A stretch of DNA of 64,000 nucleotides from Pedosphaera sp. (lineage in GTDB: Bacteria; Verrucomicrobiota; Verrucomicrobiia; Limisphaerales; SXQI01), in assembly GCA_025359965.1 (NCBI GenBank), contig JANYDC010000077.1, positions 1 to 64,000 on the forward strand, read 5' to 3'. This document shows positions 5,159 through 18,688 of this stretch, in pieces; position 1 is the first letter of the stretch; each line of letters opens with the position of its first letter. The notes beneath the pieces were generated by a model, which had not been told where the DNA came from, did no database searches, and worked only from the letters and a program-made list of their open reading frames with translations. A program made the translations under genes and the position numbers.

Positions 5159-6131
5159 TGCGTTTCCGAATGGGTTGGGATTTTTGGGATTTGGGAAGGT
5201 TGGCCGGCGAGGTTTGGCCGGGTGGCTCCTGCCAGCGAACGGGGACGTAATTTTCCACGGCGAGATCGATTGTAGCGGGGATCTGGCTGTTGCCCATGGC
5301 TTCGAGCTGGATCGCATGCCAGCGCTGCAACTGGGTGGGAATATCGGAAAAACCAAAAGTCAAAACAGTGCCGGTGGAAGTGTTCACGCGAATGCTGCGA
5401 GGATCAGAAAGGTCAATTGACTGGAGTTGCACGAGGCTGGAGATGGCCGAGCGTTGAAACCCGAGCACCCATTGAAGTGTGGCGTCAATCTGAGGGGAAC
5501 GAAGGGGTACACCAAGCTTGAGGGATTCCGGAGCCAATCCAATCACGCTGGGCAGTGAATTGGCGCGAGCCTCGGCGGCCAGAATTGAGGTGGAAGTTCC
5601 GGCTCTCGGCAGCCATGGGAGCACATAACCTTGAGCATCAAGATAAACGGTGGCAGGCTCCAAGTTGGCTGAGTCCTCAACGCGTTTCAAGAGGCAGACG
5701 CGTGCGACAGGCACGCGTTCGGTAACACTCAATTGAAGAGTGTCCGGCGGGCGCCTGATTACAGCCGCTGTTTTGATGAGCGGGACCAGCGCCAGGTTTC
5801 TCTGCACCAGAGCCAGATCAACCGCCATTAAATTATCCCCCTCCTTAACGCCCGCCCAACGTTGAATCTGGGCGGATGAAAGCAGACCATCGGACTCGGC
5901 GAGCAGGTGCTTAATCTCGAAGGCAGGATTGGAATAGAGGAGCTGATCCAAGGCGAAGCCTCCGCCTTTCCAAAGAGCGGCGCAAAGCACAATAATGGCG
6001 AAAGAGATCCCCAAAGCGATGCCTGTGGCCTTCATGCGCACTGAGCGAAGATGGCGTGAACGCACCTTAACGTCGAGGATCTGCGCTCGTTCACCACCCC
6101 GGCGGCGTTTGTTCTGCCATGGCCACTTCAT
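5151..6131 (-). CDS. ftsQ: Cell division protein FtsQ
   Basis: Bitopic divisome protein that recruits FtsB/FtsL in other bacteria. The chosen ATG at 6131 overlaps the ddl stop as ATGA and yields a 326-residue protein with a strongly basic cytoplasmic tail (MKWPWQNKRRRGGER), one membrane segment (about residues 35-53), then a POTRA domain (about 63-130, with LLSSAQIQRWAGVKEGDNLM and IKTAAVIRRPPDTLQLSVTE). The family-typical FtsQ domain follows. An upstream start at 6173 lies inside ddl and is less likely. Sequence conservation is modest, as usual for FtsQ, but position between ddl and ftsA settles the identity. Confidence 0.9.
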   Translation of the reverse strand: MKWPWQNKRRRGGERAQILDVKVRSRHLRSVRMKATGIALGISFAIIVLCAALWKGGGFALDQLLYSNPAFEIKHLLAESDGLLSSAQIQRWAGVKEGDNLMAVDLALVQRNLALVPLIKTAAVIRRPPDTLQLSVTERVPVARVCLLKRVEDSANLEPATVYLDAQGYVLPWLPRAGTSTSILAAEARANSLPSVIGLAPESLKLGVPLRSPQIDATLQWVLGFQRSAISSLVQLQSIDLSDPRSIRVNTSTGTVLTFGFSDIPTQLQRWHAIQLEAMGNSQIPATIDLAVENYVPVRWQEPPGQTSPANLPKSQKSQPIRKRNV

Positions 6132-7030
6132 GTCCGTGCCCTCCGCAACGCCAATGAAACCATTGATTGGCAAAGTTCGTCGTAGCTCAAGCCTTGGGCC
6201 GCAGCCGCCTTGGGAAGCAGGCTTGTCTCGGTCATTCCGGGGAGAGTGTTGACTTCCAAAACGACCGGGCTGCCATCGGGGCGCACCATGATATCAACTC
6301 GGGCGTAATCGCGACCACCGACGGCATGGAACGCTTTCAACGCGGCATCCTGAATAGCGGATGTCACAGCGGGCGAGAATTCCGCCGGGCAAAAATATTC
6401 TGTGGCTCCGCGGGTATATTTATTGCGGTAATCGTAATGACCGTCCTTGGGGCGAACCTCAACCACCGGCAGGGCCTTGCCGTCGAGAATCCCCACGGTG
6501 GTCTCGCGACCCACCACTCGCTCCTCAACGAGGACACGAGAATCAAACTTTAAGGCCTCGGTCAGGGCGGCTGGAAAATCTTCAAATCGATCAACGAAAT
6601 GCAAGCCGACGCTTGATCCCTGCCGTGTCGGTTTGATCACTACGGGCAAGCTCAAAGTTGCTGGAAATTCAGAGCAGGTTTCAACCACCACCGAACGGGC
6701 CAGGGGAACGCCTGCGGCTGCGCAGGCCCTTTTAGTGAAGTCCTTATCGAAGGCCAACCGGCTCGATTCGACATCACAACCTGTGTATGGAATCCCGAGA
6801 GAATCCAACTCGCTTTGGACTTGTCCGTCCTCGCCATATGTCCCGTGCAGAGCCAAAAAAACGACTTCGGTTCCAGTTGGCAAGGTCCACCGGCCAGGTT
6901 CAGGATCGAGCTCAAGCACAGTGTGCCCACTTCGTCTGAGAGAAGCGGCCACTGCGGCTCCACTGCGAAGGGATACCTCGCGCTCGGCGGAAGGCCCGCC
7001 CAACATGAGAGTGATCACATGCGCACTCAT
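6128..7030 (-). CDS. ddl: D-alanine--D-alanine ligase
   Basis: ATP-grasp enzyme making the D-Ala-D-Ala dipeptide that MurF adds to the peptidoglycan precursor. Family marks: LMLGGPSAEREVSLRSG at the N-terminus, FLALHGTYGEDGQVQSELD, the grasp lysine in VIKPTRQGSSVG, the omega loop YDYRNKYTRGATEYFCPA, and the metal-binding end VLEVNTLPGMTETSL. Length (300) is that of DdlB. It overlaps murB upstream and ftsQ downstream, each by ATGA. All active-site motifs look intact. Confidence 0.95.
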   Translation of the reverse strand: MSAHVITLMLGGPSAEREVSLRSGAAVAASLRRSGHTVLELDPEPGRWTLPTGTEVVFLALHGTYGEDGQVQSELDSLGIPYTGCDVESSRLAFDKDFTKRACAAAGVPLARSVVVETCSEFPATLSLPVVIKPTRQGSSVGLHFVDRFEDFPAALTEALKFDSRVLVEERVVGRETTVGILDGKALPVVEVRPKDGHYDYRNKYTRGATEYFCPAEFSPAVTSAIQDAALKAFHAVGGRDYARVDIMVRPDGSPVVLEVNTLPGMTETSLLPKAAAAQGLSYDELCQSMVSLALRRART

Positions 7031-7950
7031 AATTGATCCACCCCCACGATTTGAACCTCGGTTTCCAGAACCAGTCCCCGCTCGGCCAAGGCCCGAGCCT
7101 TGATCATGCTGATAAGTCCCAAAACATCCGAAGCGCTTGCGCCGCCATCGTTCACGATAAAATTGCCGTGAACATCAGAGATGGATGCTCCGCCCAGTTT
7201 GCTGCCTTTCAAACCCATTTCATCAATCAGACGACCTGACGGAATCGTCGGCGGATTTTTAAAAATGCAACCGGCACTGGGTGCGGCCGGTTGAGAGCTC
7301 CAACGTTTCTGGCTGCTCACTTTCATCTTGTGTTCAATCAAGGCGCGCTCGCCGGGAAACCCCTTCAAAACTGCAGAAACTGCGATGTGCGATTCAAGGA
7401 TTTTACAGTGGCGATAACCGACCCCCATTGAGCTGGGCTCAATCTCGACAGCCTCGCCGGTGCGCGTCAAACAACGCACTGATTGCACAATCTCAAAAGT
7501 CCAGCCTCCCATGGCCCCGGCATTCATGCGCAAAGCGCCTCCGACGGAGCCGGGAATCCCCTCTAAAAACTCAAGCCCGGCAATCCCGGCCCGCTTGGCT
7601 TCGACCGCCACGTTCTTCAAACGCGCCCCTGCGCCACAAAAAATTTCCTGACCGGAGAAATTGATGCGGCTGAAGTCCGGCTGGCTAAGGGAAACCACGA
7701 GACCGCGAATGCCGCCGTCGCGAACCAATAAATTTGACCCACGCCCAAGAACCATCACAGGCAGATGTTCGTCATCTGCCCACTGAAGCAGACGAGATAG
7801 CTCCAATTCATCACCCGGTTCAACGTAAAAATCTGCCGGACCTCCCACCCTAAGGGTGGTGCGGCGCGCCATGGGTTCATCGAGAAGCAATGGGGTTGCA
7901 GGGGACAAGAGTGAGGTCAGGCTGGCAATGAGTGAATCTTTCGATTTCAT
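7027..7950 (-). CDS. murB: UDP-N-acetylenolpyruvoylglucosamine reductase MurB
   Basis: FAD enzyme that reduces enolpyruvyl-UDP-GlcNAc to UDP-MurNAc. FAD-binding motifs: TTLRVGGPADFYVEP, VLGRGSNLLVRDGG, and GIPGSVGGALRMNAG. The substrate domain contains PSAGCIFKNP, in which cysteine occupies the place of the catalytic serine of most MurB enzymes, then GLKGSKLGGASISDVHGNFIVN. Length 307 and the missing insertion fit the compact type II form. It overlaps murG and ddl by ATGA at both ends. In many dcw clusters murC sits just before this gene; here it does not. Confidence 0.94.
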   Translation of the reverse strand: MKSKDSLIASLTSLLSPATPLLLDEPMARRTTLRVGGPADFYVEPGDELELSRLLQWADDEHLPVMVLGRGSNLLVRDGGIRGLVVSLSQPDFSRINFSGQEIFCGAGARLKNVAVEAKRAGIAGLEFLEGIPGSVGGALRMNAGAMGGWTFEIVQSVRCLTRTGEAVEIEPSSMGVGYRHCKILESHIAVSAVLKGFPGERALIEHKMKVSSQKRWSSQPAAPSAGCIFKNPPTIPSGRLIDEMGLKGSKLGGASISDVHGNFIVNDGGASASDVLGLISMIKARALAERGLVLETEVQIVGVDQL

Positions 7951-9104
7951 GCAACCTCCTCCTCAAGGGGTGGGAGAGGGTCCAATTTGAGATTAGGAAG
8001 CCGCTCCACGATCACTTCCTGCATGGCAATGGCTATTGCCTTTGCGGCATAGGGCGAATGCCACGCGCCCATGGCCTCCGCCAATGCAGTCCGACGCGGC
8101 AGATCCAAAAGCAATCCCACTACCAATTCCAAGGTTGTCAGACGACCCAACTCTGATTGCCTCACGACGATCGCGGCACCGGTGTGGGCATATTCGGCCG
8201 CATTGTAGGTTTGGTGATCGTCGGCAGCGGCAGGATAAGGAACAAGTATCGTGGGCACCCGCATGGCGGCATACTCTGCCGAAGACGAGGCCCCGGCGCG
8301 GCTAATAACCAGAGTAGCGGCCCCCAAGGCGAGATCCATCTCGGTCAGAAATGGTTTTACGAGCGCAGCCACCCCTAATTCAGCGTAGCGACTAAGAGTG
8401 CTTTCAAAATCCAGAGAACCGGTAAGATGCAGAATTTGAATCTCCGGGACTCGATGCACCAATTGGACCACCCAGCTCAGAATCCCTTGATTCAAACCGC
8501 GCGCTCCCTGGCTTCCGCCAGTAACCAGCAAGACCGGTCGGTTGGATTTGAGGCCCAAAGACAATCTCGCCGCAGTTTGATCCATCGGACGAAAATGTGG
8601 CCGAACCGGCGTGCCCGTAACTTGCACGGACTGCGAAGCCAGACGCGCGGCGGCCGATGGAAAGCCAGAAAAAGCGACATCCACCCAAGGCGCAAACCAG
8701 CGGTTGGCGCGGCCCGGGAAAGCATTTGCTTCATGAATGAAAGTGGAGATTTTTGCGAACCTGCCGGCTAGAAGAGGCGCGGCGCTGGTGAAACCACCCA
8801 TAGCCAAAACCGCAGCAGGCCGGTAGGCGCGACACCATCCGCGCATCATTTTGAATGATTGAAGAAATCCGGTAACAAAGCCGGCAATCGGCATACCAGC
8901 CAATCCCACAGAAGGCAGAGTATGAACGAGAAAATCGTTCTGTCCCTCCAAAGCCCTATGGTCAATTTCCTTGGCGGACACCAGTAAAGCGCAATCAAAA
9001 CCCAGCTCACGCAAAGCCTCTGCCACTGCCATTCCTGGGAATAAATGACCCCCTGTGCCACCGCAGGCGATTGCAACCAGAGGATTCTCGGCACGTTTTT
9101 TCAA
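7947..9104 (-). CDS. murG: MurG N-acetylglucosaminyl transferase (lipid II synthase)
   Basis: GT28-family enzyme that adds GlcNAc to lipid I on the inner face of the membrane. Marks: ACGGTGGHLFPGMAVAEAL (glycine-rich lipid-binding loop), FIHEANAFPGRANRW, VTGGSQGARGLNQ, and the UDP-GlcNAc site RAGASSSAEYAAMRVPTILVPYP. The start is a TTG at 9104 that overlaps the ftsW stop as TTGA; the next in-frame methionines lie after the glycine-rich loop, so TTG is forced. Length 385 is normal. Confidence 0.95.
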   Translation of the reverse strand: MKKRAENPLVAIACGGTGGHLFPGMAVAEALRELGFDCALLVSAKEIDHRALEGQNDFLVHTLPSVGLAGMPIAGFVTGFLQSFKMMRGWCRAYRPAAVLAMGGFTSAAPLLAGRFAKISTFIHEANAFPGRANRWFAPWVDVAFSGFPSAAARLASQSVQVTGTPVRPHFRPMDQTAARLSLGLKSNRPVLLVTGGSQGARGLNQGILSWVVQLVHRVPEIQILHLTGSLDFESTLSRYAELGVAALVKPFLTEMDLALGAATLVISRAGASSSAEYAAMRVPTILVPYPAAADDHQTYNAAEYAHTGAAIVVRQSELGRLTTLELVVGLLLDLPRRTALAEAMGAWHSPYAAKAIAIAMQEVIVERLPNLKLDPLPPLEEEVA

Positions 9105-10292: not shown

Positions 10293-11123
10293 TTAACGGG
10301 CTGCGCTGGCCTGAACCCCAGATTTAGCCGCAACCGGAATCTTCAATTCCTTGTTGATGACCAAGCGCGTGGTCTTCATTCCATTGGCTTCGCGGATTTT
10401 GGCGGTGGTGGTTCCATATTGATGGGCCAGTTTGGTCAGGGTATCACCGGCTTTGACTTTGTGAGTAATGGTCTTGCCAGTCCCAGCAACCGGGGCCGCA
10501 TCCAGTTTCGCCGATTTTGCGACGGCTGTGGTGGAAGCGCGCGTGGCAGCCGCAGGAATGGTCACAGGCTGACCCACCTTGAGCTTGCTGGGATCAAGAT
10601 TAGGATTCGCCTCGGAAAGGGCTTTTAGGCTCACTCCATTTGCTTTGGCGATCTTGGAGAGCGTGTCACCCTTTTTAATTTTGTAATCGCTGCTGGCTGA
10701 CGAAGCAACGGCGGTGCGCTCGCCAATGGGCTCATACGCATTGGTAGGTGGCACGGTCGATCCGGGGTAGTTGCTGGCGGCTGGCAGATAACCGTAATCG
10801 CGAGATGCAAGAGTGTTGGTGCCTCGAGGCGCAAACGCGGTGTTGGTGGACAGCAATGAATCGGCGAGCGCATTAGCATTAGTACTGGAGGCGTAGTACG
10901 GCGCATTGGTGTCGGATGATCCAAAAGGCGGGAGACCGTTCGTTTCAGCGAGATTGGTGTCAGCAAGCTTTTTGCTGCGCCCGCAGCCTTGCATCAGCAC
11001 CAAACCGAAAACCAGCACATGGACCGCCACGATACTGGCAAAGACAATGCGCACGTTGGAACCTCCTTTGGCGGCATTCTTGGAAAGCGCGCCTTGGGGC
11101 AAGAGTGGACTGGGTGTGTTCAT
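10293..11123 (-). CDS. Membrane-anchored protein with two LysM domains
   Basis: A 276-residue protein with one hydrophobic segment (about 25-45), then a long Thr/Asn/Ala/Ser-rich linker and two LysM peptidoglycan-binding modules: about residues 145-190 (YKIKKGDTLSKIAKANGVSL) and 219-264 (HKVKAGDTLTKLAHQYGTTT). VLMQGC at the end of the hydrophobic stretch could be a weak lipobox, so it is either a lipoprotein or a type II membrane protein. No hydrolase domain is present, so it likely binds the wall rather than cutting it. It sits inside the dcw operon between murD and ftsW, 37 bases before ftsW, which points to a role in septal wall synthesis. That role is inference. Confidence 0.85.
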   Translation of the reverse strand: MNTPSPLLPQGALSKNAAKGGSNVRIVFASIVAVHVLVFGLVLMQGCGRSKKLADTNLAETNGLPPFGSSDTNAPYYASSTNANALADSLLSTNTAFAPRGTNTLASRDYGYLPAASNYPGSTVPPTNAYEPIGERTAVASSASSDYKIKKGDTLSKIAKANGVSLKALSEANPNLDPSKLKVGQPVTIPAAATRASTTAVAKSAKLDAAPVAGTGKTITHKVKAGDTLTKLAHQYGTTTAKIREANGMKTTRLVINKELKIPVAAKSGVQASAAR

Positions 11124-11249: not shown

Positions 11250-12662
11250 TCATCCTTCTCCTCCGGTTGAATCAGCGTGCGCAGGAGTTCTGGTGCTCAT
11301 CCATTTCTGGGCGGCGGCGCGGAAGATTTCTCCGCGATGCTGATAATTTTGAAACATATCGAGGCTTGAGCAGGCTGGGGACAGCAGCACAACATCCCCT
11401 GCGACCGCATCCGCAGTGGCCAGACCAACCGCTTCCTCGAGACTGTCCACCGAAGTGCAAGGTGTGAATAGACTCCAGGCGGCGCGCAATTTATCCCGCG
11501 TCTGCCCCAGAAGAAAAGTCCCCTTCACCCGCTGGGCGATCAAAGGCCCGAGATCATGGTAATCCAAGCCCTTGTCCTTTCCACCTGCAATCAGCCAAAG
11601 ATTGGGCTCGCCGATGCGTCCGCCCGGCATTGACTCGATTGCTCTTCGCAAGGCTTCGACATTCATGGCCTTGGAATCATTAACAAAGGTCACGCCACCT
11701 GCCTCGCCCACGATCTCACAACGATGTGGCCCGCCTTCATGGGTTTGCAACGCCTCGACCATTTCCTCCAAACGCAACCGTAAAACATGTCCAACTGCCA
11801 AAGCTGCCAGCATGTTCTCGGCTTGGTGGGGCCCCTGCAACCGACAGTTGCCCATATTTAGCAGGGGTCCCGACCAATCGGGCAGGCGTCCGACCAGTAA
11901 GCCGCGATCGAGCACCAGGTCGGCTCGGGGATTCGCAGCACTGAAAGTGATGACCTTGCATGGAATTTCCACGCCGAGGGAATGCAACAAGGCCAGGGCC
12001 TCACTCTGAACGATGGCCCAATCAAAGGGCTGTTGATTCTGAAACAGCCTCGCGACCGTGCGGGCGTAATTGGCCATCCGGTCGTAGTGATCCATGTGGT
12101 CCGGCTTCAGATTCAGCAGGACGGCAATGCTGGGCCGGAAAAGTTCGACGGATTCCAGTTCGAAGGAATTTACCTCAAGAATCGCGTAGTCCAAATTCTT
12201 GGAGTCAGGCACCAGGCCGCAAGCAGCCAATCCACTGCCACCCGCTTTGCGAACGTTGCGATGGGAAAGGGTGAGCATCCGCTCGATCAACTCTGCCGTG
12301 GTAGTCTTCCCATTGGTTCCGGCCACGACAATAGGCATGCAGGAATAATGGCATGCGGCCAGCTCAAGCTCGCTCACTACTTTTATTCCGGTGGCAATCA
12401 GTGACGCCAGCACAGGTTCGGAGCGCGGAACGTTGGCCCCCAGCACCACAATTTCAGGGGAGATGCCAGCAATATCTCCCGCCCCGTCCAAAACCCTGAT
12501 CCCCACCTCCTCAAGATCAGATATTTCAGCGGCAGGGGGTATGCTCCCAGAAACTGCCAGCGCCCATACTTCGGTTCCGCGCGAGCGCAGAAAATGGCAC
12601 GCGGCAATCCCGCCGCTGTCAAGACCCACCACCAACGCTCGTTTATGCAATCGATCAGGCAT
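11250..12662 (-). CDS. murD: UDP-N-acetylmuramoylalanine--D-glutamate ligase
   Basis: ATP-dependent Mur ligase that adds D-Glu to UDP-MurNAc-L-Ala. Walker A VVAGTNGKTTTAELIE is intact, followed by NLKPDHMDHYD (HxDxH-type motif), GPHQAENMLAALA, HRCEIVGEAGGVTFVNDSKAMN, and the C-terminal VVLLSPACSSLDMFQNYQHRGEIF, a MurD hallmark. The start is two bases after the mraY stop. 470 residues, standard length. All residues I can check for catalysis are present, unlike the MurE-like protein upstream. Confidence 0.95.
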   Translation of the reverse strand: MPDRLHKRALVVGLDSGGIAACHFLRSRGTEVWALAVSGSIPPAAEISDLEEVGIRVLDGAGDIAGISPEIVVLGANVPRSEPVLASLIATGIKVVSELELAACHYSCMPIVVAGTNGKTTTAELIERMLTLSHRNVRKAGGSGLAACGLVPDSKNLDYAILEVNSFELESVELFRPSIAVLLNLKPDHMDHYDRMANYARTVARLFQNQQPFDWAIVQSEALALLHSLGVEIPCKVITFSAANPRADLVLDRGLLVGRLPDWSGPLLNMGNCRLQGPHQAENMLAALAVGHVLRLRLEEMVEALQTHEGGPHRCEIVGEAGGVTFVNDSKAMNVEALRRAIESMPGGRIGEPNLWLIAGGKDKGLDYHDLGPLIAQRVKGTFLLGQTRDKLRAAWSLFTPCTSVDSLEEAVGLATADAVAGDVVLLSPACSSLDMFQNYQHRGEIFRAAAQKWMSTRTPAHADSTGGEG

Positions 12663-12663
12663 G

Positions 12664-13812
12664 TCAGCGAAGCTTCAAACTGCTTAACGCCACAACGGCG
12701 CAAAGAATACACATGATATAAAACCGGGTGACGATCTGTGACTCGTACATCCCCTTCTTCTCAAAATGATGATGCAACGGAGCCATCAGAAAAACCCTCC
12801 TGCCCACACCGGTCCGATGCCGGGTCCATTTGAACCACGACCGCTGCATGATCACTGACAAGGCCTCCACGACAAAAACTCCGCCTGCAATGACCAGCAC
12901 AAAAGGCTGATGAATCAGCACGGCCATAATTCCCAGCGCGCCGCCGAGGGCGAGGGAGCCGGTGTCTCCCATAAAAACCTGGGCGGGATGACAATTAAAC
13001 CAGAGAAAGCCAAGACCAGCGCCGATCATCGCAGCGCAAAAGACCGCAAGCTCACCCGCACCCGCCACATGGGGCACCTGAAGGTACGCGGCAAACTTGG
13101 CGTTGCCGGCGATGTAGGTCATCACCAGAAAAACCGTGGCCACAATGAGTGTGCAACCAATGGCCAGACCATCCAAACCATCGGTTAAATTCACCGCATT
13201 GGAACTTCCAACAATCACCAGTGTGGTCAGAACGATGCCAACAACGCCGGCACCGGTAAGCACAGGATGCTTCAGAAACGGGAGTGTTATATCGGTGACG
13301 AGAGGCCTGGTTTCGGGCGTTGCGTAAAGGTAGAATCCAATAAATGCCGCCAGTGACAGTTGCACTAAAAGTTTCAATCGTTCGGCCGAGCCCAAATTAT
13401 TCTGCTGGGTAATCTTGGCATAATCATCGTAGAAGCCCAGCGCTGCGAGAATGACTAGGGATAGCAGAGTCAGGATGATGAACTCATTCCACTGCGCCCA
13501 GAGCATGGCAGAGATATCCATGGTCAGCACGATCAACACGCCGCCCATGGTGGGAGTGCCCTTCTTGCTCAAAAGGCGCGCCTTGAGGTCGCCCCCTTCC
13601 TCCGCTTTGTCGACGTAATCCTGCCCAAATTTCAAGGCTTTCAGCCAGGCGATAACTTTGGGCCCAAGCCAAAGACTCAGGAACAGTGCCGTGATTGCGG
13701 CTCCGGCACTTCGAAAAGTAATGTAACGAAAAACCCGCAAGGCAGAGAACCAGTCGTCGTAACCCGCCGTCTTGGCCCAATCCAGGAGGTATATGGAAAG
13801 TTCGTAAAGCAT
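12664..13812 (-). CDS. mraY: Phospho-MurNAc-pentapeptide transferase MraY
   Basis: Integral membrane enzyme transferring phospho-MurNAc-pentapeptide to undecaprenyl phosphate (lipid I). About ten membrane segments. Motifs: KKGTPTMGGVLIV, FYDDYAKI (metal/catalytic aspartates), NAVNLTDGLDGLAIG, FMGDTGSLALGGALG, and the histidine cluster APLHHHFEKKG. 382 residues. It starts four bases after murF and ends two bases before murD. Confidence 0.97.
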   Translation of the reverse strand: MLYELSIYLLDWAKTAGYDDWFSALRVFRYITFRSAGAAITALFLSLWLGPKVIAWLKALKFGQDYVDKAEEGGDLKARLLSKKGTPTMGGVLIVLTMDISAMLWAQWNEFIILTLLSLVILAALGFYDDYAKITQQNNLGSAERLKLLVQLSLAAFIGFYLYATPETRPLVTDITLPFLKHPVLTGAGVVGIVLTTLVIVGSSNAVNLTDGLDGLAIGCTLIVATVFLVMTYIAGNAKFAAYLQVPHVAGAGELAVFCAAMIGAGLGFLWFNCHPAQVFMGDTGSLALGGALGIMAVLIHQPFVLVIAGGVFVVEALSVIMQRSWFKWTRHRTGVGRRVFLMAPLHHHFEKKGMYESQIVTRFYIMCILCAVVALSSLKLR

Positions 13813-13816
13813 TCCT

Positions 13817-15205
13817 TCAGCTTTCCTCCCTTACAAGTCGACTGACGACACGCTCCAAACGGGCCGACCGCGATGCCTTGACCAGAACCACATCTCCCTC
13901 CCGCAATAAATCTCGCACTGCACTCCCAGCGGTTTCAGCTTCAGCGAATTCTTGCACGCTTTTGAGTCCGGCTCGCCGCGCGCCTTCGGCAAGAATTGAG
14001 GCCGACGGACCCACCGTGATCAGAAAATCAACTAAGCCTGCCGCAGCGCAACGGCCGACTTCAGCATGATCCGCAGCAGAAGAGGCCCCCAGCTCACCCA
14101 TCTCACCCAGAACGGCCACGCGTCGTCCAGGACAAGGATAACTCTTCAGCACCCCCAAGGCGGCGATCATGGAATCGGCATTGGCATTGTACGCGTCGTT
14201 CAGAACGGTCCACCCGTTGCCAAGTGTAACTTCGAGCCGCATTTTAGCGGCTTTGCAAGCAGCCAGGCCGCGCTGGCTCTCAGCGCGACCCAGCCCCAGT
14301 TCTCTCCCAACCCATAGAGCCAGCGATGCATTTAGGACTTGGTGCTGGCCCAAAAGATTGACTCGGTAGGCGCCATCCCATTGCACATCCCCGGTTGAAA
14401 GACTAAAATTGCTGCCACCGGCATCGGCACGAACATCGTAAATCTGCCAGTCGTTAAAATCGTTGTAGCCGATTCTCGTCACGTCCGCCGAACAACGCCT
14501 CAGAATACAATCGATTCCTGGCGCATCTCCATTCACAACCATTGAGGCCGAGTCCGGCAGCAACTCAGCCAGCCAACCCTCCTCCTGGGCCACTCCGGAC
14601 AAATCACCAAAAAATTCAATATGCTCGCGCCCAATGCTGGTCAGCACTCCAATGGTGGGTGCGGCCATGCGCACTAGAGGTTCGAGTTCACCGGGATGAT
14701 TGGTTCCCAACTCGATCACAGCGGAGTGATGCTCAGCGGCAAGCCGCAGCAAGGTGGCGGGCACCCCCACGTCATTGTTGAAACTGCCCTCGCTGGCAAC
14801 ACATGGGCCGCCGACTGCCATTACTGATGAGACTAAATCTTTGGTTGATGTCTTGCCATTCGACCCGGCCACCCCAATAACCGGAATGGAAAATCTGCGG
14901 CGATGCCATGCCGCCAACGCCCCGTAAGCGCCGCGAGTCGTACCGCTCACCACCACGCGCGGAATGGTGGAGGAACTCTCATTAAAACGGGCTGCAGAAA
15001 CAAGGACCGCAACAGCACCCATTGCAATGGCCTGTTGCAAATAATCGTGTCCGTCGAACCTCTCGCCGTCGAGTGCCACAAAAAAATCACCCGCATTCAC
15101 TGTCCGGGAATCAGTCCAAACCCGATCCACCAACCGCGAATGATCCGCACCATAAATAGTGCCGCCGGTCGCTTCAGCGATTTGTTGGAGGGTTAAGGTT
15201 GGCAT
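13817..15205 (-). CDS. murF: UDP-MurNAc-tripeptide--D-Ala-D-Ala ligase MurF
   Basis: Mur ligase adding D-Ala-D-Ala to the precursor. N-terminal substrate domain with WTDSRTVNAGDFFVALDGE, intact Walker A VAGSNGKTSTKD, ELGTNHPGELEPL, REHIEFFGDL, and LNDAYNANADSMIAAL typical of MurF. C-terminal domain includes VAVLGEMGELG. 462 residues. It follows the MurE-like gene by nine bases. Its intact motifs are a useful internal control for the degenerate MurE next door. Confidence 0.95.
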   Translation of the reverse strand: MPTLTLQQIAEATGGTIYGADHSRLVDRVWTDSRTVNAGDFFVALDGERFDGHDYLQQAIAMGAVAVLVSAARFNESSSTIPRVVVSGTTRGAYGALAAWHRRRFSIPVIGVAGSNGKTSTKDLVSSVMAVGGPCVASEGSFNNDVGVPATLLRLAAEHHSAVIELGTNHPGELEPLVRMAAPTIGVLTSIGREHIEFFGDLSGVAQEEGWLAELLPDSASMVVNGDAPGIDCILRRCSADVTRIGYNDFNDWQIYDVRADAGGSNFSLSTGDVQWDGAYRVNLLGQHQVLNASLALWVGRELGLGRAESQRGLAACKAAKMRLEVTLGNGWTVLNDAYNANADSMIAALGVLKSYPCPGRRVAVLGEMGELGASSAADHAEVGRCAAAGLVDFLITVGPSASILAEGARRAGLKSVQEFAEAETAGSAVRDLLREGDVVLVKASRSARLERVVSRLVREES

Positions 15206-15214
15206 GACGACAGT

Positions 15215-16747
15215 TCAGTTGTTATGGAGAACAAGCGGCGCAAACCCAGAGACTTTGGAGGCGGCGATCATCCGTGGAGCTGCTGCCGGCGCCGGAAGGG
15301 GAGGCAACTCCGCCAATGCGTCCCGGACCACTTCAAAATCATCAAAAGGCACCACTGTATGGTCAATTTCCTGATAAGTGCGGATGCCCTTGCCGGCGAT
15401 CAACACCACATCTCCAGAGCGCGCACATTCGATGGCCGAATAAATGGCGATGCGACGGTCCAACACCACCGTGGCACCCTCGTTACGATGGCGCGCATAA
15501 CCGCTCACTACAGAGCGGGCCAAAATGTGAGGAGCAATCTCCCCTGGATCATTTGAGGTGACGAAGGTGCGCGTGGCAAATCGCGCCGCCAACTCTCCAA
15601 GGGCGGCAGCGTCACTCACTGGCAGATCCGCTGAAGCTCCAGTGACAACCAGGAGCTGCCCTGAACAAAGCTCGCGCAAGCTCTGCAACGATTCCTGAAA
15701 CTGTCGGGGAGACCGGGCTCCATCCACAAAAATGGTGCGTCCCAACGCACGCCGCACCGGCTGCAAAACGCCGGGCGCGGAGAACCGGCTTGCTGCCTTC
15801 ATCAACACCGGCAGCGAAACCCCGCAGGCCACTCCGGCGGCCATTGCTGCCAGCGAGTCCGTGACCAAACACCTTCCCACCAAAGGAGAGAGGATGGATT
15901 GCCGTCCGCCGTCGCTCTCGATCACAAACTTGGTGGAATCGCGCAGCAACTCCAGATGGATGGCCCGGCATTGGGCGACCCGGCCCAGCCCATAGGTGTT
16001 TGCCACGCCAAAGCGCTCAAGCCCCAGCAAGCCTGCCCCTAAATCGTCATCTGTGTGCAATACCACTGGGGTTTGATCAGTCTGCCAGCGATGCTCCAGG
16101 TGGCTTCCCAATGAACCAACAATTTCGTCGTCCAACACTGCTCCTCGCGCCACCACCATCAGCCCAATTTTGAGAGAATCCGCTCCCCGCTCAGTGAGAA
16201 ATTCAGGCGACAGCTCGACCACTGCAGTACCGCAGCCGAATCGCGCGGCTGAGGCAAGCATTTGATCGTAATCCAAAGATTCAGCATCAGGCGGCAATCC
16301 CGGGAAAACGCGCGTTCCGATCTCGCAACGCACGCTTCCCACCAAAGCAGTAAGATGCCCGGCTTGTTCCAAAATTTGACGTAAAAAAATCGCCACGGTT
16401 GAGCGCGTCCAGCCGCCGGTGACTCCAATGACCCTCATACTTCGGCTGGGATCCCCGTGAAAACGGGAGGAAAGCCTTGATAGTGTTTCCCGTGCGTTGG
16501 CCACACGGATGGCCGTGGCCTGTGAACCACAAGCGAGCGGCTGCTCACTCACCACCACCACTGCCCCACGGTCCAAAGCCTCTATCACACCCTTGTCGTG
16601 GGCTTCCTCACCATCCGGCAAGGCCACGTAGATTCCTCTGGGCGGGACTCTTCGCGAATCACAGGCGATGGCAGAAACCTCGCGTGAAAGACTTCCTTGC
16701 ACACCCAGTGTTGGCAATCCTCGGAGTAATTCCTCAAGTATTCTCAC
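15215..16747 (-). CDS. MurE-like protein with degenerate active site (probable pseudoenzyme)
   Basis: Homologous over its length (510 residues) to MurE, which adds the third amino acid of the stem peptide. The UDP-substrate domain keeps IACDSRRVPPRGIYVAL (about 27-43). The ATPase P-loop, normally GTNGKTT, reads GGWTRST (111-117), without the phosphate-binding lysine. The NLxxDHLDYH region reads VARGAVLDDEIVGS; PGRME reads PGVLQ; VDYAHTPD reads VDGARSPR (341-348); the DNPR amino-acid selectivity motif reads NDPG (399-402); GKGHE reads GKGIR (452-456). Frame and fold-forming residues around these are preserved (VIGVTG, RQILEQAGH, GDVVLIAGKG), so it is not a decayed open frame. It occupies the murE position, overlaps ftsI by GTGA and starts with GTG. 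A working MurE must be encoded elsewhere, or this protein does not act as a ligase. The homology and position are firm; the non-catalytic role is inference. Confidence 0.88.
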   Translation of the reverse strand: MRILEELLRGLPTLGVQGSLSREVSAIACDSRRVPPRGIYVALPDGEEAHDKGVIEALDRGAVVVVSEQPLACGSQATAIRVANARETLSRLSSRFHGDPSRSMRVIGVTGGWTRSTVAIFLRQILEQAGHLTALVGSVRCEIGTRVFPGLPPDAESLDYDQMLASAARFGCGTAVVELSPEFLTERGADSLKIGLMVVARGAVLDDEIVGSLGSHLEHRWQTDQTPVVLHTDDDLGAGLLGLERFGVANTYGLGRVAQCRAIHLELLRDSTKFVIESDGGRQSILSPLVGRCLVTDSLAAMAAGVACGVSLPVLMKAASRFSAPGVLQPVRRALGRTIFVDGARSPRQFQESLQSLRELCSGQLLVVTGASADLPVSDAAALGELAARFATRTFVTSNDPGEIAPHILARSVVSGYARHRNEGATVVLDRRIAIYSAIECARSGDVVLIAGKGIRTYQEIDHTVVPFDDFEVVRDALAELPPLPAPAAAPRMIAASKVSGFAPLVLHNN

Positions 16748-18627
16748 CTCGAACCTCCATTCGACGCCAAACGTGGTGCGGCCTCAGGTTCCGGAGGGAT
16801 CGCCAAATACTGGGCCACTCTTTCACCAATACGACGAAACACGGGAGCGGCCACGTCACCGCCAAAATGACCATGCTTTGGTTCATCCAACATGACGATC
16901 AGGCACACCTCGGGCTCATCCGCCGGAAAGAAACCGACAAAAGAAGTGTAGTACTTCCCTGGGAGATATCCCGCGCGACCTGTTCTTGGATCCCGACCTG
17001 CCTTTTCCGCAGTTCCTGTTTTGCCAGCAACAGTATATCCCGGGATGGCCGCTTTAATCGCCGTGCCATTGGTTGTGACCACCTTCTTTAAAGCCTGAAG
17101 CATCAGAGCAGAAGCCTGCTCGGAAATCACCCTTCGCACCACTTGCGGCTCATATGTCACCGCCCTGCCTCCGTGATCATCCTGCAACCGGCTGACCAGC
17201 ATCGGTTTCATCAGCACCCCTTTATTGGCAATGGCGCTCATGGCCATCACGATTTGCATGGGGGTCACGGCAATCTCGTGGCCCATGGTCACCCGACTGA
17301 TGGAGATTTCCTGCCAGTTGGTCAGCGGATGGACAATCCCGGAAGACTCGCCCGGCAGGCCAAGCCCCGTCCTGTCGCCCATCCCGAATGCTTTGACATA
17401 ATGGTAGAGGCCCTCGTTATGCAAATATTCGTTGCCCACCTTAAACGCACCGATGTTCGAGGATTTCGCAATGATGTCCTCAATAGTCAAATCCCCATGC
17501 GAACCGTGGTCCCGCAAAATCCGTCCGGCAAAAATGGTTTGGCCATGGTCACAGGAGAAAACCCGCGACAGGGGCGCTCCCTGATTGAGTGCCCCTGAGA
17601 CGACCACGATCTTAAAGGTTGAACCCGGCTCGTAGACCTGGCTGATGACACGATTAAACCGATTCTCATCAGGCACTTTGGTGAACAAATTGGGGTCGAA
17701 CGTAGGCCAACTGGCCAAAGCCAGTACTTCCCCTGTCCGTGGGCGAACCGCCACCACGCAAGCTCCTGTGGGAGAGTGCTTGGCCACAGCGGAAGCCAGC
17801 TCTTCCTCCACGATCATCTGGATTCGACCGTCTATTGTGAGCACCGCGTTTAGACCGGGTTGAGCCTCAACTTCCTGCTCTCTAAAAACCACCACTTCCC
17901 GTGCGCGCTTGTCTGTTTCAGTTTTGCGCCAGCCATACACACCTGAAAGGGCTTTGTTCAGCGCCAGCTCCATCCCGGCCAGGCCGGTCGAACGCATTGC
18001 GACAGTGGAATTTGTTGAAACTGCGGCAACCCCGACATATCCCAACACATGCGAAGCCAGGGGGCCATTGGGATAAATGCGCAATTGATCGGGTTCGGCA
18101 GATAGGGCGCGCCGCCGCATGAATGCCAATTCCGTCCGTGCCGATTTAGTCAGGGACTTTTCATTCGGCACGCTGATATTGGTCATGGCGACTTTCAATT
18201 GACGCCAGGTGTCCTCCTCCACCAAATGCTTCAGAACTACGTAACGATCCGGTGTTTCCGTGCCGTCCTTCTTCTTGAGCATGGGGAAGTTCAGCTGTCT
18301 CGCCACGCTGTCCACATCCAATTTGAGAACTGGGGCGATGGCCTGCGCCACCAGCAGGAAATTGGTTTTGATGGCCGTGGGATCAGCGGTGATGGTGTAA
18401 ACCACCTTGCTCGTGGCAAGCACACTGCCACGGGCGTCAAGGAGATCACCCCTCTTTGGTTCAAGCAGAAGCCGCCGCTTAGTGTTATTGCCTGCTTCCT
18501 TGCTCAAGGAATCCTGCCTCAAAACCTGCAGGTCAACCAGCCGGGCACCCAACAAAATGAAGGCAGCGGCGAGCAGGGTTGCCATAAAAAGCAACCGTCC
18601 TCCCTTCCGTTCCACAGCCACAGTCAT
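16744..18627 (-). CDS. ftsI: Septal penicillin-binding protein (FtsI/PBP3-type transpeptidase)
   Basis: Class B PBP that cross-links septal peptidoglycan. Start at 18627 follows a clean GGAGG seven bases upstream. One membrane anchor (about residues 8-30) precedes the dimerisation domain (KRRLLLEPKRGDLLDARG). Transpeptidase motifs are complete: active serine in EPGSTFKIV, SSN in KSSNIGAFKVG, and GKTGTAEKAG. No PASTA repeat is visible; the tail is short and Pro/Ala-rich. 627 residues. The gene lies between the FtsL-like gene and the MurE-like gene in standard dcw order. Confidence 0.95.
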   Translation of the reverse strand: MTVAVERKGGRLLFMATLLAAAFILLGARLVDLQVLRQDSLSKEAGNNTKRRLLLEPKRGDLLDARGSVLATSKVVYTITADPTAIKTNFLLVAQAIAPVLKLDVDSVARQLNFPMLKKKDGTETPDRYVVLKHLVEEDTWRQLKVAMTNISVPNEKSLTKSARTELAFMRRRALSAEPDQLRIYPNGPLASHVLGYVGVAAVSTNSTVAMRSTGLAGMELALNKALSGVYGWRKTETDKRAREVVVFREQEVEAQPGLNAVLTIDGRIQMIVEEELASAVAKHSPTGACVVAVRPRTGEVLALASWPTFDPNLFTKVPDENRFNRVISQVYEPGSTFKIVVVSGALNQGAPLSRVFSCDHGQTIFAGRILRDHGSHGDLTIEDIIAKSSNIGAFKVGNEYLHNEGLYHYVKAFGMGDRTGLGLPGESSGIVHPLTNWQEISISRVTMGHEIAVTPMQIVMAMSAIANKGVLMKPMLVSRLQDDHGGRAVTYEPQVVRRVISEQASALMLQALKKVVTTNGTAIKAAIPGYTVAGKTGTAEKAGRDPRTGRAGYLPGKYYTSFVGFFPADEPEVCLIVMLDEPKHGHFGGDVAAPVFRRIGERVAQYLAIPPEPEAAPRLASNGGSR

Positions 18628-18688
18628 TTCGTATCCTCCGCACCACATGATTTCATGCCCGAGCCCGCACCACCAGCCGTTGCATGAT

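Follow-up and report, generated by a model that had tools for sequence, protein, structure and literature searches.

A predicted MurE pseudoenzyme in the division cluster of Limisphaerales and the recurrent loss of MurC, MurD and MurE in the order

The gene between ftsI and murF

The window (the whole 64,000-nucleotide stretch of DNA analysed) contains a dcw cluster on the minus strand, in which the murE position is occupied by an open reading frame at 15215..16747. This frame starts with GTG, encodes 510 aa and has no internal stop. Its start is overlapped by the upstream neighbour ftsI (16744..18648), and it is followed by murF (13817..15205), mraY (12664..13812) and murD (11250..12662). Farther along the same strand lie murG (7947..9104), murB (7027..7950) and ddl (6128..7030). 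The murB gene stands alone and encodes 307 aa, whereas MurC-bearing relatives usually have a murC-murB fusion; since murG adjoins murB with no murC in between, murC was deleted rather than lost through an assembly gap. A LysM-domain protein conserved in the dcw clusters examined is encoded between ftsW and murD (10293-11123), and a phage-type tyrosine integrase (446-1549) lies beside the ftsZ end of the cluster.

The sequence-only reading had described the 510-aa protein as a full-length, in-frame MurE homologue with six altered catalytic motifs. All six changes were found, and losses in the TTPE, SSH and carbamoylated-lysine regions were added to them. The former P-loop (16397..16417, minus strand, as for all sites below; residues 111-117) reads GGWTRST instead of GTNGKTT, the lysine being replaced by arginine and a glycine lost. 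The former TTPE substrate motif (16277..16294) is now PPDAES, and the former EVSSHAL stretch (16196..16216) is ELSPEFL. At the former DYAHTD site (15707..15724; residues 342-347) stands DGARSP, and DGA(R/K)(S/T)P is common to the MurE proteins of genus g1 at this site. DNPR, the diaminopimelate recognition motif (15542..15553; residues 399-402), has become NDPG, GKGHE (15380..15394; residues 452-456) has become GKGIR, and the PGRME site reads APGVLQP (residues 324-330). HLDYH is missing, and the region of the carbamoylated lysine (K224 in E. coli) is lost as well; where catalytic MurE has DHLDYH and the carbamoylated lysine, the region was absent or read LDDEIV or HLEHRWQ. An extra C-terminal tail (15218..15307; residues 481-510), mostly predicted to be disordered, is found in genus g1 and not in active MurE.

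The protein matched the NCBIfam MurE model at 2.7e-65 with 198.5 bits against a cut-off of 257.3, and fell below every family cut-off; the Pfam middle domain scored 19.7 bits against a 24-bit cut-off. The AF2 model has a complete three-domain fold (pLDDT 87.2, pTM 0.86), with disorder confined to residues 489-510. Foldseek searches with this model returned MurE structures at a TM of about 0.8, and the nearest solved structures were MurE proteins and the plant MurE-like protein PAP11 (8r6s_Q, E 3.7e-41). Given that the P-loop lysine, TTPE, SSH, HLDYH, the carbamoylated lysine and DNPR are all gone, the protein should be unable to act as a Mur ligase, and it is almost certainly a catalytically dead member of this enzyme family, as judged from its residues.

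The neighbouring MurF and MurD had both been described as keeping intact motifs. This held for MurF (GSNGKTS) but not for MurD, which retains the P-loop GTNGKTT but reads ARTVARLF at 12042-12065, where controls have ARAKAKIF or similar, so that valine replaces Lys198. Carbamoylation of MurD Lys198 has been described as essential (PMC3060825), and from its loss the MurD of the window is probably inactive or impaired. In genus g1, the MurD proteins of the window's family (f1) retain the P-loop, E157 and H183 motifs, and by these motifs some activity might be left in them.

Family orthologues and selection on the pseudo-MurE

The same dead gene was found between ftsI and murF in all five f1 genomes (G000-G004). 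Identity to the window protein is 41% in three species of the same genus and about 30-32% in one relative of the same family. The P-loops of these four orthologues read GGKSRAS, GGKSRAC, GGNTRAG and GSFGQCS, and HLDYH is lost in all four. Complete relatives belonging to about 25 other families of Limisphaerales show normal MurE motifs. Since the losses recur in G001-G004 while these relatives keep the motifs, chance is excluded; the spread of identities over which the motifs are lost also indicates that the inactive state is old. A second MurE, which the earlier reading had proposed to look for, was found neither in the 92%-complete assembly of the window nor in G001-G004. MurC was likewise not found in G000-G004; extra Mur-ligase matches on C81 and its equivalents were considered as MurC candidates and rejected, as they are FolC.

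Selection on the gene was assessed by dN/dS (Nei-Gojobori method with bootstrap). The pseudo-MurE gave 0.083 (0.054-0.117) for the pair G001-G003 and 0.130 (0.069-0.183) for G001-G002, as compared with 0.04-0.11 for active MurE in control pairs, 0.13 for MurF and 0.09-0.10 for the damaged MurD; since dS is 1.5-2 in the genus g1 pairs, above 1, the exact omega is uncertain and only "well below 1" is safe. Between G001 and G003, the identity of the pseudo-MurE was 89% in the N-terminal, 80% in the middle and 75% in the C-terminal domain. As its dN/dS equals that of active MurE, the gene is not in neutral decay, and it is very likely under purifying selection. The earlier proposal of a retained, inactive MurE was thus borne out, and the combination that would have spoken against it, normal orthologues at the locus with neutral decay of this copy, was not what we saw.

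In family f7, MurE has shrunk independently: the middle ATPase domain is largely deleted and the C-terminal domain is best kept. The frames are open, with 409-570 aa, in most of the 34 f7 genomes. The f7 pairs, most with a dS of 0.18-0.6, are better suited to the estimate, and they gave dN/dS values of 0.11-0.25, with 0.05-0.13 for the C-terminal 160 codons. Since the shrunken f7 protein is under purifying selection, a non-catalytic MurE came to be retained on more than one occasion.

Loss of MurC, MurD and MurE across Limisphaerales

Textbooks count MurC, MurD and MurE as essential enzymes, and all three are targets of antibiotics. Among the non-redundant dcw loci, 27 had all three intact. 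In 47 others, MurC was absent, MurD was absent, fragmentary or damaged, and MurE was absent or dead. The complete loci retained MurF, MraY, MurG, MurB and Ddl. There were exceptions: G030 (f27) and G045 (f42) lack MurC and keep MurD and MurE, the flag on MurD of G045 being GTDGKTT only; G103 (f16) lacks MurC and has an intact MurE; G025 keeps the MurD motifs without MurC and MurE; and L194 has no MurC, an intact MurD and no MurE seen. Further loci flagged by the script were contig edges or frameshifts (L173, L179, L202, L204 and L225) or a one-letter P-loop variant, GTKGKTT (L154/G021). Of 293 Limisphaerales genomes, only 64 had MurC above its cut-off, and a match at Mpl/MurC level was present in 257. 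Dead or deleted MurE is widespread in Limisphaerales, and the case of the window is not unique.

On the best IQ-TREE tree, which was built from seven dcw proteins, the MurC state changes 8 times, at least 4 of them forced by well-supported branches. A single ancient loss of MurC was rejected when the MurC-less rows were held as one clade (p-AU 0.005). A sign test on independent pairs was too small for significance. With 99% SH-aLRT support, the family of the window groups with MurC-bearing rows; its loss was therefore a different event from that of the large MurE-less clade. Loss of MurC, usually together with MurD and MurE, is thus recurrent in Limisphaerales.

The ftsI-murF gap of this large clade was about 700-1050 bp in L245, L222-L243 and others. 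A membrane-anchored SIMPL gene (DUF541, PF04402, 5.5e-22) stands exactly at the murE site in this clade; a murE remnant in the gap was considered and rejected, as the 800-bp gaps carry this unrelated gene. Other members of the clade have a small ORF at the gap with a conserved ISHR(L/M)(F/Y)VAA and no Pfam match. In family f2 (L104, L218, L240 and L242), the catalytic Glu157 of MurD is replaced by alanine and dN/dS of MurD in close pairs is 0.05-0.07, which makes it a candidate for a second, independent Mur pseudoenzyme under selection.

The named relatives, by which the group is assigned to Limisphaerales (Verrucomicrobia subdivision 3), are almost all MAGs, and an assembly or binning artefact has to be weighed for this reason. 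It is extremely improbable, as the gene order is contiguous in each genome and is the same in assemblies made independently by different projects, and the same deletions occur at more than 40 loci. Six Limisphaerales-type MAG contigs (L168, L182, L185, L192, L234 and L246) are titled "Akkermansia muciniphila" in public records. The dead gene might instead be a decaying relic, left without substrate once MurC was gone and drifting to loss, its frames open only because the loss was recent. Such an end is seen in other lineages, which deleted murE and have about 0-1050 bp left between ftsI and murF, and in f16 murE grades from intact (G103) to degraded, with a somewhat higher omega, 0.25. We regard a relic as unlikely for family f1, where omega equals that of active MurE and the motifs were lost long ago in all five genomes; the mostly unsaturated f7 pairs and the stop-free frames in most f7 genomes argue against it as well. 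A gene kept by selection for something other than catalysis agrees better with these data.

Mpl and the source of the stem peptide

The sequence-only reading implied that the classical pathway still works alongside the pseudoenzyme. This did not hold: the family has no MurC, its MurD is probably impaired, and it has the murein peptide ligase Mpl instead. In a 41-genome sample, a bona fide Mpl was present in all scanned MurC-less genomes except that of the window, including the family relatives G001-G004. No match was obtained in the 92%-complete assembly of the window, where Mpl may be missing through an assembly gap and its presence is deduced from the relatives. The Mpl equivalog cut-off of 388.7 bits was passed by all eight proteins tested (440-474 bits). 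Nearly all of 20 Mpl proteins compared kept FFDKRSK, RR, HH, EPRSNT and SNG, the residues proposed for tripeptide recognition (PMC3060825). A conserved tripeptide operon around mpl was considered and rejected, as the neighbours vary between families.

In the proposed account, Mpl would ligate the tripeptide L-Ala-D-Glu-mDAP onto UDP-MurNAc and MurF would then add D-Ala-D-Ala to complete the stem, so that the steps of MurC, MurD and MurE are bypassed. MurB upstream and MurF downstream, both required for such a bypass, are retained. The family has the gene set of this route: MurC is absent, MurE dead and MurD presumed inactive, and MurF, MurB, MraY and MurG are present. A bypass through Mpl in f1, with the flux deduced from gene content, is probable. 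MurE, and probably MurD, would thereby have been freed of catalysis and kept as a non-catalytic component, most likely one that partners the remaining Mur machinery (MurF, Mpl and MurG) structurally or serves it as an allosteric sensor of ligands. For this putative scaffold or sensor role the chances appear evenly balanced. Within the large MurE-less clade, most lineages simply deleted murE, so a non-catalytic role would be dispensable in them. Because some genomes lost MurC alone, the order of events may have been that Mpl covered MurC first, with MurD and MurE falling idle later; G030, G045 and G103 likely represent this intermediate stage, with Mpl possibly standing in for MurC. Taken as a whole, the account of an Mpl bypass with a dead MurE kept for a non-catalytic role is the one we favour, with some reserve.

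It is conceivable that Mpl replaces only the MurC step, the addition of L-Ala, and that the peptide is finished by MurD and a MurE that has diverged but is still active. Multicopy E. coli mpl complements a murC ts mutant, and PaMpl accepts L-Ala, albeit at 0.7 versus 260 per min (PMC3060825); the genomes assigned above to an intermediate stage probably exist in just this condition. We nevertheless consider it quite unlikely for the window's family, and slightly less likely than the relic, since the f1 MurE has none of the catalytic motifs, MurD lacks Lys198, both genes are deleted outright elsewhere, and MurI (glutamate racemase) is missing. An undetected, non-homologous ligase system that builds the tripeptide de novo, with Mpl loading it and the pseudo-MurE as a subunit, is doubtful, but less so than either of these: net growth requires new tripeptide, and a Dat-like class IV aminotransferase was found in nearly all genomes, so D-Glu could still be made. 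For the same reason, a D-Glu deficiency through missing Dat was not provable. Against such a system stand the lack of conserved partner genes beside mpl and the distribution of MurI, which was present in 9 of 16 intact genomes and in 0 of 23 MurC/E-less ones.

AmpG-like permeases (80-187 bits, below cut-off) occurred only in MurC-less genomes, namely in 7 of 23 (G009, G014, G025, G026, G046, G047 and G055) plus G045, and in 0 of 16 intact genomes. None was found in f1, and AmpG as a general importer was rejected, as it is confined to G045 and a section of one clade. For the source of the tripeptide, exogenous salvage would be the boldest proposal. Under it, most of this order, which is abundant in fresh water and soil, would live on murein tripeptide from other bacteria via Mpl without making the stem peptide, and several lineages would independently have found non-catalytic uses for the idle MurE (and MurD), for example in sensing the supply of tripeptide or DAP and thereby gating MurF and division; we put this forward only tentatively, as a possibility somewhat less remote than the de novo system.

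The window protein shares fold, length, domain order and the ftsI-murE-murF position with MurE, the UDP-MurNAc-L-Ala-D-Glu:meso-DAP ligase, including that of V. spinosum (PMC3681970), but it has lost all the catalytic and ATP/substrate motifs tested. PAP11 of the plant plastid-encoded RNA polymerase likewise keeps the MurE fold in a probably structural role outside peptidoglycan, and is kept where MurA-MurD are missing (PMC12681378). It differs in belonging to a plastid transcription complex and not to a dcw operon beside an intact MurF, and most plant versions, unlike the window protein, keep DNPR/DNPK and many catalytic residues. The Mpl of the family genomes has the diagnostic motifs of the known enzyme (PMC3060825), which is a dispensable recycling enzyme beside MurC-F, whereas here it would be the sole entry of the stem peptide. 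The MurE-MurF fusion of B. pertussis with MurG (PMC6420597; 8f5d) shows that MurE can partner MurF and MurG structurally, although that MurE is catalytic. The MurC-MurB fusion and an apparent absence of MurC in some Verrucomicrobia lineages (Opitutae) had already been noticed (PMC4803751), but were not connected there with Mpl, a pseudo-MurE or the loss of MurD and MurE. In Opitutae, MurB still carries a fused Mur ligase domain, whereas the loci described here have MurB alone. The open-access literature searched contained no paper tying the absence of MurC to Mpl, to a pseudo-MurE or to MurD/MurE loss, and a 2025 survey counts the dcw genes of Verrucomicrobiota among the highly conserved ones (PMC12283558). 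A precedent is the MurNAc auxotrophy of Tannerella forsythia (PMC5790795): having lost steps towards its cell-wall precursors, this bacterium depends on a fragment from outside, in that case a sugar and not a stem peptide.

If the account is true, a free-living order that lost these three enzymes repeatedly and kept the rest of the pathway would show that the main entry point can pass to a recycling ligase, and the losses would be dated natural experiments on the path from an essential enzyme to a pseudoenzyme. Stem-peptide auxotrophy would also be predicted, and it may be one reason why many of these bacteria resist cultivation.
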